From assembly GCA_024998685.1 (NCBI GenBank), contig JACOEH010000025.1:1-62490 (forward strand): a stretch of DNA of 62,490 nucleotides, given 5' to 3'. The notes beneath the pieces were generated by a model. That model searched no databases and had not been told where the DNA came from. It saw only the letters and a list, made by a program, of their open reading frames with translations. The DNA comes from Nitrospira sp. GTDB lineage: Bacteria > Nitrospirota > Nitrospiria > Nitrospirales > Nitrospiraceae. A program made the translations under genes and the position numbers. Positions 4,292 through 13,561 of this stretch are shown piece after piece (within the stretch, counting starts at the first letter, position 1; every line of letters starts with the position of its first letter).

Positions 4292-6016
4292 ATGATCATC
4301 AAGTTATCCCCCTTCGCTTTTGTATCCATCGCCGTGTTATGCGGCATCATACCGGTTTCTGTTGCCGCTGGAGATTCAGAGGTTCGATCGCCGCAAGAAG
4401 AATTGAGCATGATGAGAAATAATCTCCAGCAAGCCAAACAAAAAATCGATGAGCTCGAGCGGCAACTTGCTGCCGATAATCTGGAAAATGCAAAGCGACG
4501 GATCGGTGAGCTCATTCTCCAGCTCCATGCCAAGGAGAATGAGCTCTCGTCCTTAAGATCCAGCGCCCATGAGAATTCCAAGAAGCTTCGAGAAGACCTT
4601 GCGTCACAGACTGAGGAGCTCAACCAAGCCAAGCGCCGTACCGCCGAAGTCGAACAACAATTGACGGCGGGGAAAGGGCAAGATTTGATTCAGGCCAAAC
4701 GCCGCGCAACCGAAGCCGAACAACAGGCGACGAGGAAAGAGCAGGAACTGGCTCAGGTCAAGCGGCGCATAACCGAAGTCGAACAACAAATGGCGGGAAA
4801 AGAGCTCGAACTGTCGCAGGCCAAACGTCGCCTAGCTGAAGCAGAACAACAGACGACCGGAAAGGAACAGGAACTGACCCAGGCTAAGCGCCGCACAACC
4901 GAAGCGGAACAGCAGACGACGAGGAAAGAGCAGGAACTGGCCCAGGTCAAGCGGCGCATAGCCGAAGTCGAACAACAGATGACCGGGAAAGAGCAGGAAC
5001 TGGCCCAGGCTAAACGCCGCGCTGCCGAAGTCGAACAACAGACGGCAGCAGGAAAAGAGCAAGAACCGGCCCAGGCTAAACGCCGCATGGTTGAAGCAGA
5101 ACAACAGACGACCGGGAAAGAGCAGGAATTGGCCCAGGCCAAGCGCCGCATGGCCGAAGCAGAACAACAGACGGCGAGGAAAGAACAAGAACTGGCGCAA
5201 GTCAAGGACGACCTCAAACAAGTCACACAAAAATTGGCGGATCTCAATCCCCAACTCATGGCGAGAGATGCGGAACTCGCCCGTATGAAACAATTGCTGG
5301 AGAACCTGGAGCACATTCCCTCCAAACCGGCCGAGGCGACCTACTCTCCAGAAGAAAGCCTTTCCGAGAAGAATCCACCTCCCCCCCAATCGGTCGAAGA
5401 GAACGTCTCCGTGACCAACCTGCTGCCGCCCGCCCCCGGAATGACAGCTGATGCAGAGGTCTTATTAAGTAGCGACCTCGGCAAGATGAGTGAACGCCTT
5501 GCGAGCCTGTTACAGCCGGAACTCAAGAAGGGCAATGTGACCTTGAGGCAGCGAGGAAACAAATTGACACTCGCGTTTTCGACCGGTGAACTATTCACTT
5601 CGGGTGATGCCACGGTCTCCCTGGGAGGCACCTCATTGCTTGAGCGGGTCGGAACCGTCTTACACGGATTCCGTTACCAGAGCGTAGAGGTTGCCGGACA
5701 TACCGACAACACACCACTCCGGAACGATTCTCGGAGAGGCTTTCGGGATAATATCGAACTGTCCAGGACACGGGCTGAACATACAAGCCAGGCACTGGTC
5801 AACGGAGGGCTTGATGCCGATCGAGTCAAGGCAGTCGGGTACGCGGACACTAAACCTATCGCGGCGAATGACACCGAAAAAGGCCGGAGTAAGAATCGTC
5901 GAATGGAGATCGTGATTACTCAGTGGTTGGAAACCGGTTCTAATTCAGACGATGCGAAAACCCAGGTCGGCAAGAAACTCCGAGGATTCTCCACTCAGGC
6001 GGTCACCCATCATTGA
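4292..6016 (+). CDS. Coiled-coil OmpA-family peptidoglycan-binding protein
   Basis: A 574-residue envelope protein. An N-terminal signal (residues 1-26, ending SVAAG) is followed by a long helical region (residues ~30-345) of heptad-rich sequence including nine near-identical 21-residue units (core QAKRRxxEAEQQ...KEQELA). A proline-rich linker leads to a C-terminal OmpA domain (residues ~440-555) with HTDNTPLRN and LSRTRAEHTSQALVNGGL, and NRRMEIVI near the end, the usual peptidoglycan-binding elements. It likely spans periplasmic space with the OmpA domain on the wall, in the manner of MotB/YiaD-like proteins. Partners are unknown. Confidence 0.9.
   Translation: MIIKLSPFAFVSIAVLCGIIPVSVAAGDSEVRSPQEELSMMRNNLQQAKQKIDELERQLAADNLENAKRRIGELILQLHAKENELSSLRSSAHENSKKLREDLASQTEELNQAKRRTAEVEQQLTAGKGQDLIQAKRRATEAEQQATRKEQELAQVKRRITEVEQQMAGKELELSQAKRRLAEAEQQTTGKEQELTQAKRRTTEAEQQTTRKEQELAQVKRRIAEVEQQMTGKEQELAQAKRRAAEVEQQTAAGKEQEPAQAKRRMVEAEQQTTGKEQELAQAKRRMAEAEQQTARKEQELAQVKDDLKQVTQKLADLNPQLMARDAELARMKQLLENLEHIPSKPAEATYSPEESLSEKNPPPPQSVEENVSVTNLLPPAPGMTADAEVLLSSDLGKMSERLASLLQPELKKGNVTLRQRGNKLTLAFSTGELFTSGDATVSLGGTSLLERVGTVLHGFRYQSVEVAGHTDNTPLRNDSRRGFRDNIELSRTRAEHTSQALVNGGLDADRVKAVGYADTKPIAANDTEKGRSKNRRMEIVITQWLETGSNSDDAKTQVGKKLRGFSTQAVTHH
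4625..5197 (+). repeat. Nine tandem 63-bp units encoding a 21-residue coiled-coil repeat
   Basis: Nine successive units of 21 codons (three heptads), each built on QAKRR...EAEQQ...KEQELA. One unit has an extra alanine codon. Units 2-3 and 5-6 are especially alike, suggesting duplication of a two-unit block. The repeats also create long spurious frames on the opposite strand. Confidence 0.9.
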
Positions 6017-7514: not shown

Positions 7515-8372
7515 GTGACGCAACATCGGGATGGAAGGAACGGCGAGCGCATCCCTACATCCGAACCACGGTATCGTCTTGCTGCAACCGGACGCCAAAA
7601 GGCTGAAGATCATCGACTCAGCCTCCTAGAAACAATTTTCGACCCGCTTTCTCGTCAACGGCGTGCCTTCGTTCAACCCGGCTGGCGCTGTCTCGAAGTC
7701 GGCGCAGGCCGCGGGTCCATGGCTGTGTGGCTGTCCCAGCGAGTCGGGATCAACGGTCGAGTCATGGCCACTGATGTCGATATCACGTACCTCAATCGGC
7801 TTGACCTTCCGAATCTCGAAGTCCGCCGGCACGACATCCTCAGTGATTCCTTGGATGCGCTGGATCCCGGCTCATTCGATCTTGTCTGTGCGCGGCTTAT
7901 GTTATTTTGGCTTGCCGGCAAACAGGAGATCGCCATCCGACGCATGGTGGAGTGTTTACGACCGGGTGGATGGCTTCTCGACGAGGATGGTGACTGGGGC
8001 GTGGTCGCTCCGGTAGACCCTTCTCATTCACACTACGAACTCTACCACCGCGTCTGGAAGAACGGCGAATGGTGGGCGGAGCGTGGCTACGATCCTATGT
8101 TTGGAAGAAAGCTACCGATGTTGTTCGAACGCTGTGGCTTGGTGAATATTCGCCACAAGGCGAGCGCATCGGTGGTCCGTGGAGGCAGTCCATGGGGACA
8201 GTGGTGGTTGCAAAGTCTGGAAGCGATACGTGCTTCCGAGCAGACCGACGGGAGCCTCACCGAGGAACGAGATAAAGAATACGGAGTGCTCACCGCCCCT
8301 TTGACCGACCCATCTTTTTGGTTTCTCAATGCACTGATCCATGCCTGTCGGGGCCAACGCGGCGTCTCCTAG
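7515..8372 (+). CDS. Class I SAM-dependent methyltransferase
   Basis: A 285-residue soluble protein. Motif I is clear at residues ~60-70 (CLEVGAGRGSMAVWL), followed by an acidic end of strand 2 (ATDVD), then FDLVCARLMLFWL and RMVECLRPGGWLLDEDGDWG, the standard order of a UbiE/Methyltransf_11-type fold. Substrate cannot be told; the long C-terminal part (residues 170-285) may form it. The start is uncertain: GTG 7515 is used here because no in-frame ATG lies close. Its last bases overlap the convergent ybgC gene by 4. Confidence 0.83.
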   Translation: MTQHRDGRNGERIPTSEPRYRLAATGRQKAEDHRLSLLETIFDPLSRQRRAFVQPGWRCLEVGAGRGSMAVWLSQRVGINGRVMATDVDITYLNRLDLPNLEVRRHDILSDSLDALDPGSFDLVCARLMLFWLAGKQEIAIRRMVECLRPGGWLLDEDGDWGVVAPVDPSHSHYELYHRVWKNGEWWAERGYDPMFGRKLPMLFERCGLVNIRHKASASVVRGGSPWGQWWLQSLEAIRASEQTDGSLTEERDKEYGVLTAPLTDPSFWFLNALIHACRGQRGVS

Positions 8373-8785
8373 CAGGATCGAGGCAGTATAGAAGGATGGG
8401 CCGCTGATTGGAGCGCAACAACCATGGCTCCGTCCAGACGCACGACTTTCCCGTTCCCGTCCGTCGCCGCCAACCGAGCCGAGCCTTTCACCACCACGCG
8501 GCCGCTCACCTTCTCGCGCACGACATGCGAAAATGTCAAAGCAGCCCGCGTCACATCGCCTACGTCCGTTTCGACGACCAACGTTTCTCCGTATCGGCCG
8601 GGCGAGCAATAGTCCACTTCGGCATGCACGACCACGAAGATGATGCCTTGTTTCATCAAGGCCGCAACTGAATACCCTCGCATTTCAAGGTATTCGGTAC
8701 GAGCCCGCTCAAAATACTTCAGATAATTGGCATAGTATACGACCCCACCGCAATCGGTGTCCTCGTAGTAAATACGAATTTCCAT
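8369..8785 (-). CDS. ybgC: YbgC-family acyl-CoA thioesterase (hot-dog fold)
   Basis: A 138-residue protein of usual length for 4-hydroxybenzoyl-CoA thioesterase-like proteins. The N-terminus carries the signature YYEDTDCGGVVYYANYL with the catalytic Asp, followed by FERARTEYL. In other bacteria YbgC hydrolyses acyl-CoA thioesters and often neighbours tol-pal genes, which are absent here. It is the last of three leftward genes (CARF protein, 108-residue protein, ybgC) and overlaps the methyltransferase end by 4 bp. Confidence 0.88.
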   Translation of the reverse strand: MEIRIYYEDTDCGGVVYYANYLKYFERARTEYLEMRGYSVAALMKQGIIFVVVHAEVDYCSPGRYGETLVVETDVGDVTRAALTFSHVVREKVSGRVVVKGSARLAATDGNGKVVRLDGAMVVALQSAAHPSILPRSC

Positions 8786-8812
8786 GAAGGCATATCGCTG
8801 ATAGCTTACTGC

Positions 8813-9139
8813 TTACCAAATTTTTGTCTTCTTCCTGTTTTCAGGCTCTTTTCTAATAGTGACCCAGTATTCCTCTCGGACATCGTCGTCAATTTCCATT
8901 GGTAGTCTTTCACCATACAATCGATCCTGTCCATTTTTCTTTGGGCCGGAAATCCAATACTCCTCTCCAGTTTCTATATCGTAGTAGTTTGCCTTAAACC
9001 CTGCTCCCTTCAACGTTTTGAAAGTCTTTCCATTGTAGTAGATCGACTTGCCTGCCCTAGAAAAAGTTACTCGACCAATTCTTGCCTCGCCGATTATTCC
9101 TCCAGCTTTGCATTCTATGTACATGATTCGGTTTTTCAC
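8813..9139 (-). CDS. Conserved 108-residue protein of unknown function (next to the CARF gene)
   Basis: A short basic protein starting MKNRIMYIECKAGG; ATG 9124 is an alternative start. Recognisable pieces are ARIGRVTFS, KTFKTLKG, FKANYYDIETGEEYW and WISGPKKNG. Similar small proteins are widespread and are sometimes mislabelled as 1-deoxy-D-xylulose-5-phosphate synthase; nothing here resembles that enzyme, which is far larger. Codon use is visibly more AT-rich than neighbours, hinting at transfer. It follows the CARF gene by only 17 bp on the same strand, so the two are probably co-transcribed. Confidence 0.8.
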   Translation of the reverse strand: MKNRIMYIECKAGGIIGEARIGRVTFSRAGKSIYYNGKTFKTLKGAGFKANYYDIETGEEYWISGPKKNGQDRLYGERLPMEIDDDVREEYWVTIRKEPENRKKTKIW

Positions 9140-9156
9140 TAACTTGCTACAAGCCT

Positions 9157-10413
9157 CTAGACCGCAAGAGTGGGAAACTTCGGCAGCGACGTCTCATTGA
9201 CACTGGACAGCTTGAGAACCACCTCGTAGAGCTGCTGCACTCGTTCTGATTTGATGGGTTCGAAACCGTGCCCCAACACTGCATGATTCGAGGCATCCAG
9301 CAACGGCTTCATCTTAGGCCATTCCCTGAGAAAGGCTTGCCCCAGTTGGTCGCCCAACCCGGCCAGCACGCGAAACTGGGCTTGAAGCGGCAGTTTGTAC
9401 TTGCCGTCGATATCTTCGAGATAACAAGCGCGGCAGATCTCTTGTAGCCCTTGCGGAAGCTGCTCGGGCGACACATCCCAACTCTTGATCTTGTGCGATT
9501 TATGAAGCCGGACTTGTGCGAATGCCTCGAGCGCACGAACGAGCGCGGTCATGGCCGCTTCAGGATCGCGGCCGGCGCGGAGCCTTCTTTCGGCATGGGC
9601 CAGCAAATCCAAGGATACAAATTCTTTGACTTCAGCGGGATCGAGAACGAGCTTTTCGAGGAAGCCGGCGTTGGCCTTGAGGGGGGGAAGTACCGCTTTC
9701 AATCCGGAAGGTCCGCCCCACAGCGAAGCCATCTCGAGCGCCTTGGTCGCGGTTTTCAATTTATCCCAAGCCTGGCGGTAATGAAACCGTTCCCACAACT
9801 CATAGCCCTCGGCTAAATCCTTCAATGCCCGATACAACGGCTTCTGCCCGCCACTTACTAATAGTTCTATATCGTGAAACATTTTAACGGCGGTATGAAA
9901 GAGACCTCGGTTGAACAACTCACATGCCTCTCGCCGCGACACCGTCCCCTGCTCATCCCACGGATTCGTTTGAGCCCAGACCCGCGTCTTGGAACCTAAC
10001 TCGACACGATCGCTCTCCGAACCTTCGCGTGCAGGAGCCAGTTCAACCACCCGAGAAGTCCACGGAAGCGCCACCAAGGTGAGCGCGCCCGCCATCGCAG
10101 CGGTCGCGCCGCTCAGATCCACGACCAGCTCCCCAGGCTGTATCCCCCATGTGCGTAAGAGATCCGGTAACGACCGCGCAATCGTCTGATAGGTGGACGG
10201 AAACTCCGTAGCATCGGCCACCACAATCCAATCCCACCGCCTCGGCATCTGTTGGATCTTCGGCTGGACGTCCGACTCCACCAAAGCCTTGCTCCCTTCA
10301 GGCAACACGAAACACAAGGTATCCGGGTTGAGCCTGTTGATCGAATAGACCGCCGACGCCGCGTCATCGACGAATGCGGTCACAAGCGTCTTGATGGATT
10401 GGTCTTGTGCCAT
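9157..10413 (-). CDS. CARF-HEPN protein of the TIGR02710 (Csm6-like) type, no CRISPR nearby
   Basis: A 418-residue protein. The N-terminal half looks like a CARF (Rossmann-like) sensor domain: strand TLVTAFVDDAA, then VVDLSGATAAMAGAL (residues ~93-107), the position where TIGR02710 proteins carry a D-x-TGGT-like ligand-binding loop. The C-terminal half is helical with RALEAFAQVRL and ends in NHAVLGHGFEP, the late histidine motif of these HEPN-type proteins. Such proteins bind cyclic oligoadenylates and cut RNA in type III CRISPR systems. No cas genes or repeats occur in the window, so it is an orphan. Assignment is by motif; activity is inferred. Confidence 0.75.
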   Translation of the reverse strand: MAQDQSIKTLVTAFVDDAASAVYSINRLNPDTLCFVLPEGSKALVESDVQPKIQQMPRRWDWIVVADATEFPSTYQTIARSLPDLLRTWGIQPGELVVDLSGATAAMAGALTLVALPWTSRVVELAPAREGSESDRVELGSKTRVWAQTNPWDEQGTVSRREACELFNRGLFHTAVKMFHDIELLVSGGQKPLYRALKDLAEGYELWERFHYRQAWDKLKTATKALEMASLWGGPSGLKAVLPPLKANAGFLEKLVLDPAEVKEFVSLDLLAHAERRLRAGRDPEAAMTALVRALEAFAQVRLHKSHKIKSWDVSPEQLPQGLQEICRACYLEDIDGKYKLPLQAQFRVLAGLGDQLGQAFLREWPKMKPLLDASNHAVLGHGFEPIKSERVQQLYEVVLKLSSVNETSLPKFPTLAV

Positions 10414-10560: not shown

Positions 10561-10989
10561 ATGATCTGGTCGTACTGGTTGTTCATGGGATTAGTCCTTG
10601 CCGGCGCAGAAATGCTTTCGCCGGGGGGATTCTATCTCCTGTTCTTCGGCATTGCGGCATTGATCGTTGGTGCATTGGCCGGTCTGGGTATCGTGCAGAC
10701 TGCATGGCTGGAATGGCTGCTGTTCTCCATTCTGGCTGTCGTCTCGCTCCTGCTTTTCCGCGGCCCGCTGCTGCTATTGACCAAAAACACTCCGACTCAT
10801 GCGGTGGACAGCATGGTAGGAGAATCCGCCGTTCTACTTGACGATCTTCCCTCGGGGCACACAGGCAAGGCAGAATTGCGCGGTACGACGTGGACGACCC
10901 GCAACGAGGGGGACTCTCCGCTGGCCAAGGGGCAGCGCGCAATCGTAACAAAAGTGGACGGGTTGACGCTCTGGGTGAGATCCGAATAG
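10561..10989 (+). CDS. NfeD-family membrane protein
   Basis: A 142-residue protein with two or three membrane segments in residues 1-75 (WLFMGLVLAGAEML, FGIAALIVGALAGLG, LLFSILAVVSLLLF) and a C-terminal OB-fold-like soluble part ending TKVDGLTLWVRSE. This is the short NfeD1b type, which usually accompanies a stomatin/SPFH gene. The SPFH gene follows 27 bp downstream on the same strand, supporting joint function in membrane domain organisation. Confidence 0.9.
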   Translation: MIWSYWLFMGLVLAGAEMLSPGGFYLLFFGIAALIVGALAGLGIVQTAWLEWLLFSILAVVSLLLFRGPLLLLTKNTPTHAVDSMVGESAVLLDDLPSGHTGKAELRGTTWTTRNEGDSPLAKGQRAIVTKVDGLTLWVRSE

Positions 10990-12009: not shown

Positions 12010-12588
12010 ATGCAAACAATTGTTTTAACGGCTTTTGCGGACAGTGCCAGGGTCAAACAGCAGTTCGCACATGACCATGCCGATCGTATCGTGCAGGTCG
12101 CGACGCTCATCGCGAAAGCCTTCCATAACGGCAATAAGCTCCTCCTCTTCGGCAACGGCGGGAGCTCGACCGACGCGGCGCATATCGCGGCGGAGTTCGT
12201 GGGGCGATACAAGCGCGAGCGAGCACCCATGCCTGCCATCGCTCTGGCGACGGACATCGCCGCCATTACCTGCATCGCGAACGACTATGGGTATGAAGAA
12301 TTGTTTGCCCGCCAGGTGCGGGCGCACGGCCGGCAAGGCGACATTGCCGTCGGCATCAGCACGAGTGGGAATTCTCCAAACGTGCTGAAAGGTGTCGAGG
12401 CGGCCCGCGACTGTGGCTTGACCACGATTGCCTGGACCGGCGCCAACGGCGGCAAGCTGGCCGGGCTGGTCGATTATCCCTTCATCGTCCCCTCGACGGT
12501 CACATCTCGGATTCAAGAGAGTCACATCACGCTCGGCCACGTTTTGTGCGAACTGGTAGAGGATCATCTCCTTGGGAAAGCGTCCTGA
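12010..12588 (+). CDS. gmhA: Phosphoheptose isomerase (SIS domain)
   Basis: A 192-residue protein of normal GmhA length converting sedoheptulose 7-phosphate to D-glycero-manno-heptose 7-phosphate for LPS inner core. The SIS sugar-phosphate loops are visible: LLFGNGGSSTDAAHIAAEFVGRY (residues ~43-65) and ISTSGNSPNVL (~117-127), and near the end RIQESHITLGH with the active-site residues of GmhA. It starts a compact rightward cluster including the later heptose enzyme rfaE2. Confidence 0.93.
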   Translation: MQTIVLTAFADSARVKQQFAHDHADRIVQVATLIAKAFHNGNKLLLFGNGGSSTDAAHIAAEFVGRYKRERAPMPAIALATDIAAITCIANDYGYEELFARQVRAHGRQGDIAVGISTSGNSPNVLKGVEAARDCGLTTIAWTGANGGKLAGLVDYPFIVPSTVTSRIQESHITLGHVLCELVEDHLLGKAS

Positions 12589-13561
12589 TCGGACTTCCGT
12601 GACTCGGCCTCCTTCCTTGATTCCGCCGATCAATACGTCCGATCTGAAGACGTATCCGCTGAAAAGACGACACAGCAAGGTCAGACTCTCGGACTTGGCC
12701 GCGCCGTGGAAACGCGGGGGTGCGTTCTCGACATTCTATTCCCGTCTCCCGAACATCTTAGCGGTCAAGACATTACGGGCCGTCACCCAAGCCGTCGTGA
12801 AGGCGCATCGACGGCGTCGCCCCGTCATTGTCGGAATCGGCGCCCATGTGATCAAGGTGGGGCTGGCGCCGATCATTACGGACTTGATGGAACGACGGAT
12901 CATCACGGCAGTGGCCATGAACGGGGCGGGGATTATTCACGACTTCGAATTGGCCTTCATGGGCCATACCTCCGAAGAAGTCGATGCCGAGATCGATGAG
13001 GGTCGGTTCGGCATGGCGGAGGAAACAGGACGGATGCTGAATGAAGCCATCGTGCATGGCGCCAAAAACGGCCAAGGGTTGGGTGAGGCCATCGGCTGCT
13101 ACATCAACCAAACAGCCGATCAATTCCCGAATCGCGCCGTCAGTATTCTGTCAGCGGGCGCGCGACTCGGCATTCCGGTGACCGTGCATGTCGCGGTCGG
13201 GACCGACATTATCCACATGCATCCCTCGGCGGACGGTGCCGCCATCGGAGCGACTTCTCTCCTGGATTTCAGGCGTCTCACCGCCGTCGTCGCAGGAATG
13301 GAAGGCGGCGTCTATGTGAACATCGGCTCGGCCGTGGTTCTTCCGGAGGTCTTTTTAAAAACCCTGTCGTTAGGGAGAAACCTGGGCCATCCGATCGCGA
13401 ACATTACCACCGTGAACATGGATTTCCTCTCCCATTACCGGCCGCAGACCAACGTCGTGCGGCGCCCCACACAAAAGGGCGGGCACGGCTATTCCTTGAC
13501 CGGTCATCACGAAATCATGCTGCCGTTGCTCGCGGCAGCCGTGTTGGAGGAATTGGGATGA
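12572..13561 (+). CDS. Deoxyhypusine-synthase-like conserved protein in the heptose cluster
   Basis: A 329-residue protein recognised by VAMNGAGIIHDFELAFMG, then EVDAEIDEGRFGMAEETGR and a late block VNIGSAVVLPEVFLK followed by SLTGHHEIMLPLLAAA. Related bacterial proteins are usually labelled hypothetical or deoxyhypusine-synthase-like and often neighbour gmhA or rfaE. Bacteria lack the eIF5A substrate of true deoxyhypusine synthase, so that reaction is unlikely. The start used is TTG 12572, which overlaps the gmhA end by 17 bp and has AGAGGA 8 bases before; the N-terminal 20-40 residues are uncertain. Stop overlaps the next start (ATGA). Confidence 0.75.
   Translation: MGKRPDRTSVTRPPSLIPPINTSDLKTYPLKRRHSKVRLSDLAAPWKRGGAFSTFYSRLPNILAVKTLRAVTQAVVKAHRRRRPVIVGIGAHVIKVGLAPIITDLMERRIITAVAMNGAGIIHDFELAFMGHTSEEVDAEIDEGRFGMAEETGRMLNEAIVHGAKNGQGLGEAIGCYINQTADQFPNRAVSILSAGARLGIPVTVHVAVGTDIIHMHPSADGAAIGATSLLDFRRLTAVVAGMEGGVYVNIGSAVVLPEVFLKTLSLGRNLGHPIANITTVNMDFLSHYRPQTNVVRRPTQKGGHGYSLTGHHEIMLPLLAAAVLEELG

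Follow-up and report, generated by a model that had tools for sequence, protein, structure and literature searches.

A Csm6-like CARF-HEPN protein carried across Nitrospirales without the sensor lysine and catalytic arginine of its ribonuclease relatives

The open reading frame at positions 9157 to 10413 on the minus strand of the window (the whole stretch of 62,490 nucleotides of Nitrospira DNA analyzed here) encodes a genuine CARF-6H-HEPN protein in which both signature residues of Csm6-type ribonucleases are replaced, and this double loss spans three families of Nitrospirales and every full-length ortholog that was examined. The explanation that we judge likely is that a Csm6-type RNase became fixed in the ancestor of Nitrospirales, lost both of its sites, and is now vertically inherited as a non-cutting housekeeping protein. 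Slightly more guardedly, we favor the wider reading of a domestication, in which an ancillary CRISPR ribonuclease became a core protein of the order, blind to cyclic oligoadenylate (cOA) and non-cutting, with selection keeping the HEPN scaffold and not its chemistry, and in which CARF-HEPN housekeeping exists outside immunity. Csm6-type proteins are known as RNases that an alarm signal triggers in type III CRISPR immunity, and orphan copies are generally classed as defense genes; Nitrospira are nitrite oxidizers and comammox organisms.

The original prediction had called the gene a TIGR02710-type CARF-HEPN protein and had proposed a profile search as the check; profiles and fold agree that the name is right. 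The 418-amino-acid product (ATG start) scores 131 bits against TIGR02710, for which the curated cutoff is 83.9, and it matches Pfam Cas_Cas02710 (the Csm6 HEPN) and Csm6_6H. The family is already catalogued in PADLOC as PDLC01812 (CARF1--CARF_HEPN), which gives 793 bits across 417 of the 418 positions; the entry and the window protein are thus one family matched over the whole length, yet the plain CARF_HEPN name is silent on the missing active sites and on the wide housekeeping presence described below. An AlphaFold2 model built from 71 orthologs (pLDDT 86.4, pTM 0.72) is nearest, among solved structures, to Csm6 of Thermus thermophilus (Foldseek E 9.2e-14), and the VIA comparison with Thermus Csm6 (PDB 5fsh, 8jh1) gives Z 21.3 over 377 residues at rmsd 7.4 and 18% identity. 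The CARF part of the model also has structural matches to Can2, Card1, and Cam1 over about residues 1 to 153. A profile of the 71 orthologs reaches Thermus Csm6 in the PDB at E 6.6e-6; phmmer with the single protein returned nothing from the PDB but a chance NifE-like match. The architecture and fold of Csm6/Csx1 ribonucleases are therefore present, with a CARF domain at residues 1 to 150 (9964 to 10413, minus strand; boundary set from the AlphaFold2 model), a Csm6 6H domain at residues 151 to 256 (9646 to 9963, minus; PF22205 at 158 to 229, boundary set by us from the model), and a HEPN domain at residues 257 to 418 (9160 to 9645, minus; PF09670 at 268 to 403, E 1.8e-22, boundary likewise set by us).

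The two functional sites tell a different story. We compared the 110 distinct full-length orthologs (out of 117 rows, 7 rows shorter than 380 letters having been dropped) with 18 TIGR02710 proteins of the phylum, 14 of which are from other families or are Nitrospirales paralogs and 4 of which are from family f19. In common with TIGR02710/Cas_Cas02710 CRISPR-associated proteins, the window orthologs have Asp99, Arg293, Glu296, Gln300, and Gly383. Unlike them, they have a different commonest residue at 15 positions where 85% or more of the 18 comparators share one residue (fragments L191 and L192 excluded), among them the comparator residues Gly15, Gly103, Lys105, Arg290, Arg375, and Ala381; Gly103, Lys105, Arg375, Asn376, Ala381, and His382 are each present in 18/18 comparators. 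CARF motif II (residues 99 to 107, DLSGATAAM; 10093 to 10119, minus) mostly reads D-x-T-x-G-T-K-x-M in the comparators and has alanine at position 105 in the window protein. Lys105 is kept in none of the 110 orthologs (Pro 85, Ala 17, Ser 5, Val 2, Thr 1), which leaves them without the CARF ligand motif given as (D/N)-X-(S/T)-X3-(R/K) in a passage of PMC4748810, and Gly15 of motif I is retained in only 4 of them. The altered HEPN active-site motif (residues 375 to 383, SNHAVLGHG; 9265 to 9291, minus) corresponds to RNx(S/T)xLAHG in the comparators. The original prediction had pointed to a HEPN-like histidine motif, and its histidine stands, with His382 kept in 105/110 orthologs and Asn376 in 75/110; what is missing is the arginine. 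Arg375 is found in 0/110 (Ala 106, Val 2, Thr 1, and Ser 1, the last being the window protein), so that no ortholog forms R-X4-6-H with an arginine at the catalytic position. Altered residues at 105 and 375 are seen as well in one f3 member and in one additional member of f1, the window's own family.

Based on the ortholog profile alignment, position 105 corresponds to K137 of Thermus Csm6, and positions 375, 376, and 382 correspond to R415, N416, and H422. The mutants described in PMC10897365 speak directly to these residues: with K137A, cA4 binding and the degradation of RNA are both abolished; T59A/S60A, located in motif I, also abolishes degradation; and any one of R415A, N416A, and H422A abrogates RNase activity. 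Taken with the alignment, these mutants indicate that the window protein is naturally changed at residues needed for both functions; it shares the CARF-6H-HEPN fold with Thermus Csm6 but lacks equivalents of K137, needed for cA4 binding, and of R415, needed for catalysis. From sequence, then, we predict that both cA4 sensing and RNase activity have been lost. The earlier suggestion of an RNase activated by cyclic oligoadenylate is not supported by this comparison, the needed lysine and arginine being replaced in all 110 distinct full-length orthologs.

Could the protein have rebuilt its active site? This is the strongest rival of the pseudo-Csm6 explanation, and it posits that the HEPN dimer cuts RNA by means of His382 and other polar residues (e.g., Arg293, Glu296, Lys369, and His377), either constitutively or under a different trigger. 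A HEPN domain that lacks the canonical motif may rely on different residues, and such sites are discussed in PMC3710099. The rival is also favored by the dN/dS of the HEPN domain, the lowest of the three domains, by the persistence of His382, by the presence of Arg293 and Gln300 in all core and f2 rows, and by Lys369, which is invariant in the 71-row alignment. Position 377 can be read in both directions: an arginine there occurs in 3 of the 110 orthologs and produces a literal R-X4-H in three close relatives of the window (L005, L032, and L033) and also in L207, not in the window protein itself, yet the position is variable (His 81, Gln 24, Arg 3, Lys 2; n = 110). We do not take Arg377, which lies two residues off the catalytic position, as a restored site because the comparators also vary there. 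Against a rebuilt site, the gene persists in f2 members in which His382 (kept in 12/17, replaced in 5/17) or Glu296 (replaced in 3/17) is gone, and these losses are what one expects if catalysis no longer matters. We regard a rebuilt site as unlikely. The degree to which His382 and Asn376 are kept nevertheless exceeds what an entirely dead site would call for, and this counts against the loss of both functions as the best explanation.

In the mechanism that we propose, a stand-alone Csm6-type CARF-HEPN ribonuclease would have been fixed in the ancestor of Nitrospirales; its cyclic-oligoadenylate pocket (the motif I glycine and the motif II glycine and lysine) would then have been lost, as would the HEPN catalytic arginine, and the protein would have passed into a vertically inherited housekeeping role. 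Judging by its fold, the protein would dimerize as Csm6 does, in the form of a non-catalytic dimer, and, judging by the residues tested in the homolog, it would neither bind cA4 nor cut RNA. We speculate that it is most likely an RNA- or protein-binding regulator that acts via the conserved HEPN/6H surface, with the HEPN cleft holding the target and the remodeled CARF domain possibly gated by another ligand. The missing motif together with the high constraint would be consistent with a non-catalytic mode of RNA binding, and an analogy for a non-catalytic HEPN regulator or RNA binder can be drawn with MtlR, which is described in part of PMC3710099 as a HEPN protein without the R-X4-6-H motif, thought to be non-catalytic and encoded in an operon with metabolic genes. 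MtlR would thus resemble the window protein in acting through a motif-less HEPN domain without catalysis; it belongs to another HEPN family, and the resemblance is one of mode, not of membership. Residues present in at least 97% of orthologs and in fewer than 35% of comparators include Asn26, Arg27, Trp60-Asp61-Trp62, Trp146, Trp312, Cys327, Gln346, and Gly381 (among others); some of these ortholog-typical residues, Asn26 among them, are common to the f19 copies.

The distribution of the gene is that of a widely kept gene. In a sample of 295 genomes of the phylum, relatives occur in 40/40 members of the genus (the window's genome included), 38/39 of the rest of family f1, 17/18 of f2, and 0/1 of f3; among other class members there is 1/15, through a 46-residue match at E 5e-4 only. 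Order-wide, 204 of 235 genomes have a match (141/153 of those of good quality), distributed as 74/79 in the genus, 85/96 in the rest of the family, and 45/60 in the rest of the order, with two f3 genomes having a match and at least four lacking one. The true ortholog count is somewhat below 204, since some matches, such as those in G387 and G389 (E about 1e-27 to 1e-28), are no stronger than those of the paralogs. The named loci are nearly all Nitrospira or Nitrospirae/Nitrospiraceae, including N. moscoviensis and Ca. N. defluvii; one record (L052) is labeled Nitrosospira. There are 31 order genomes without a match, 12 of them of good quality. In one genome that lacks the CARF gene, G242, gmhA and the deoxyhypusine-synthase-like gene (DHS) are there with other genes on the opposite side of the locus, so the gene was lost or replaced. 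At G135, neither the CARF gene nor gmhA nor ybgC was found, and a missing region and a loss fit alike. Within f3, G282 lacks the gene and G303 has it, with altered residues and an adjoining ybgC. A separate observation on G242 (L203) is a large ORF, presumably for a restriction-modification subunit, where the CARF-ybgC side is expected, which suggests replacement by an island.

Selection on the gene has been measured as pairwise dN/dS, taken as the median over pairs with dS between 0.2 and 1.0. The CARF gene gives 0.100, compared with 0.096 for gmhA, 0.085 for DHS, 0.124 for ybgC, 0.152 for nfeD, and 0.032 for SPFH, and its domains give 0.148 (CARF), 0.079 (6H), and 0.073 (HEPN). Purifying selection on the gene is strong, and it is strongest in HEPN and 6H. 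These values bear on the idea that the protein is a decaying, functionless relic, for which the lost catalytic residues and an in-frame stop in two listed copies (G372 and G346) could be cited; there is no internal stop in the other copies among the matches listed, and a dN/dS of 0.10 is like that of gmhA. We give the relic reading almost no credence.

The phylogeny is consistent with the history proposed above. The tree of 90 rows (IQ-TREE, LG+C20 PMSF), which includes about every second core row and excludes L191, groups all orthologs in a single clade with 100/100 support, which sits at the end of a long branch of 1.0 change per site. This clade is adjacent to four intact f19 copies (100/100), and the type III-linked Nitrospirales paralogs fall outside. 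The order of the deep events is less sure because the root was set at the midpoint and the branches are long, and the program issued a long-branch warning. Alignment A1 holds 71 rows; it omits L102, whose stretch translates with stops, and excludes L045, L070, L071, L081, L084, and L108 to L110.

The neighborhood is likewise stable. Downstream of the CARF gene lies a co-directional ybgC-like thioesterase gene (8369 to 8785, minus; Pfam 4HBT), and ybgC was found in 115 of 137 rows with a CARF gene, in every case (115/115) in the same direction and downstream. On the divergent side are an nfeD-like gene (10561 to 10989, plus; Pfam NfeD and synteny), a neighbor in part of the order, and, in many relatives, a gmhA-like gene (12010 to 12588, plus; synteny), named presumptively from its sequence. 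Of the 91 rows that extend 2.5 kb or more upstream, 79 have a divergent nfeD and/or gmhA within 2.5 kb; of the 12 without them nearby, 7 are f2. Some of these neighbor rows are the same locus fetched twice. At the f3 locus L207, ybgC adjoins the CARF gene and the contig ends on the opposite side. The gap from the CARF stop to the ybgC start varies across 98 distinct loci (30 bp or less in 30, 31 to 249 bp in 32, and 250 bp or more in 36). The CARF gene is probably co-transcribed with ybgC, and its neighbors alone hint at a connection with envelope or lipid metabolism. The gene at 12572 to 13561, kept beside gmhA in many relatives, weakly matches deoxyhypusine synthase (Pfam DS at 21.1 bits, under the cutoff).

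Is there a CRISPR system with which the protein could work? The claim that the window holds no CRISPR locus is borne out: repeat, Cas10, and Cas1 searches, with part of the window's ORFs profiled, found no array or cas genes in it, and the CARF gene stands alone in that no cas genes were found near it. In the searches of the window's own genome for Cas10 and Cas1, nothing fell on the window's contig (C39), and the genome, which is 98.8% complete, yielded no Cas10 match (PF22335). It has one TIGR02710 match and two Cas1 genes; the Cas1 loci, on the contig pair C77/C22 (L205, L206), are of I-G type (Cas4-Cas1 fusion, Cas56g, Cas7g) and I-A-like (Cas8a, Cas5a, Cas7, Cas3), with at least 22 and at least 17 repeat copies, respectively. 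The genome thus shows no match for the Cas10 that would go with a Csm6/Csx1 ribonuclease, a further difference from Thermus Csm6. We therefore reject cooperation of the protein with a type III system encoded at another place in the genome, the Cas10 search proposed for it having found no match and both Cas1-bearing loci being type I. The rest of the order points the same way: among 98 members in the sample, Cas10 matches exceed 60 bits in 6, are weak in 4, and are absent in 88. The weak matches (G274, G145, G212, and G189; E 1e-4 to 1e-6) were not counted because the same profile also matches an E. coli control; with all of them taken as real, Cas10 would be in 10/98. Strong-Cas10 members G216, G127, G248, and G268 also have a separate, intact TIGR02710 paralog; G177 and G197 have a strong Cas10 and no such paralog, and G260 has an intact paralog and no listed Cas10 match. 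Of the 14 comparators from outside f19, nine have a Cas10 match no more than 20 kb away; in the six strong-Cas10 order members, the window-type ortholog is not within 20 kb of Cas10.

These data also weigh on the possibility of a stand-alone defense effector, i.e., a CARF-HEPN RNase switched on by a nucleotide signal whose source is non-CRISPR or acts in trans. Membership in TIGR02710 and the PADLOC listing speak for it, as does the statement, in a part of PMC4012209, that CRISPR-unlinked CARF genes occur in each CARF family. Further in its favor, 2/17 f2 loci have type II CRISPR material (a locus or its Cas1) next to the gene, and these two are exceptions to the rule of a gene on its own: in G177 (L174) and G171 (L173), Cas1 is some 4 to 7 kb away from the CARF gene, with Cas9, Cas1, and an array of at least 22 repeats of 36 bp in the usual ybgC slot of L174 (9308 to 15530) and a Cas1 relative plus a 1,120-amino-acid ORF beyond ybgC in L173. 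This type II material is best read as another insertion at the same slot, and type II loci are not known to make cyclic oligoadenylate, which counts against its supplying the signal. The signature residues are lost, the wide presence, fixed neighbor, and clade structure are atypical of defense genes, no Cas10 match came from the genome of the window, and a pattern-based scan of viral contigs found no relative of the CARF protein. We hold a defense role to be improbable, clearly more so than a rebuilt active site. The f19 relatives are a separate matter. Their Cas10 matches have E below 1e-18 in 4 of the 5 genomes that have the gene, with a weak match in G054. The intact copy in G017 is stand-alone, between rho-prfA-murA and gltA-like/priA genes, and G042 has a similar ORF order, as judged by order alone. 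Two f19 proteins (L122 and L123) have intact motifs with Cas10 on other contigs, the L123 copy standing alone beside rho-prfA-murA, and they are candidates for putative trans-acting type III effectors.

If the domestication reading is true, the protein would be a clear case of CRISPR effector domestication (widespread, syntenic, selected, and missing both residues), and matches to the TIGR02710 and PADLOC profiles would over-call defense in Nitrospira. Our literature search returned no description of a site-less CARF-HEPN protein fixed in an order, although a mention in Makarova et al. 2020 is possible. A question would also become testable: what is the role of CARF and HEPN scaffolds that neither sense cOA nor cut RNA?

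The CARF gene had been described as tightly paired with a 108-residue protein, and here the descriptive part holds and the pairing does not. The small ORF (8813 to 9139, minus; GTG start) lies between the CARF gene and ybgC, 17 bp from the 418-residue ORF and co-directional with it, and its G+C of 0.416, compared with 0.572 for the CARF gene and 0.546 for the window, makes it as AT-rich as had been claimed. A two-gene system of the two proteins would explain this arrangement and its recurrence in G280. Adjacency, however, is limited to 2/99 distinct loci (98 plus the window): in a set of 110 CARF loci, relatives of the small protein occur only at the two copies of the window's own locus, and of the 6/295 phylum genomes with the small gene, only the window's and G280 have it beside the CARF gene. 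The other four genomes have it among unrelated ORFs, namely a glyoxalase-like one together with a heavy-metal ATPase, ankyrin repeats, an AMP-binding enzyme, and genes for JAB and histidine-kinase proteins, and the joint conservation across genomes expected of a two-gene defense or toxin-antitoxin system is not seen. Between the window and G280, the small protein is 83% identical and the CARF protein 67%, which also argues against the pair. The CARF-ybgC gap (8786 to 9156 in the window) is an insertion hot spot of 0 to 4.4 kb, also occupied in L021, L028, L030, L031, L050, L061, L062, L069, and others. An ORF of one similarity cluster sits in this slot at 22/98 distinct loci, and both scanned members of that cluster match PF05635 (23S rRNA-intervening sequence protein, 23S-rRNA-IVP). 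The patchiness of the 108-residue gene and this 23S-IVP-like cluster together indicate that the slot gathers small patchy genes. A two-gene system is scarcely credible, and we have rejected it; the small gene is an incidental insertion and a chance neighbor.

No Pfam, NCBIfam, or PADLOC family matches the 108-residue protein above the cutoff, and the pattern-based scan of viral contigs found no relative of it. Among plasmids, 8 records matched, all below 60% identity, and among phages 1 record did; a single-sequence model is poor, with a pLDDT of 41. Its family is common, with a patchy distribution among bacteria, and frequently carries the wrong name of 1-deoxy-D-xylulose-5-phosphate synthase. 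Elsewhere in the window, the repeat search turned up nothing resembling a CRISPR array, and its sole find is a coding repeat of 63 bp: eight direct copies at 4656 to 5228, inside a 574-amino-acid ORF (4292 to 6016), that are coiled-coil-like and not CRISPR. The end of that ORF is presumably OmpA-like.
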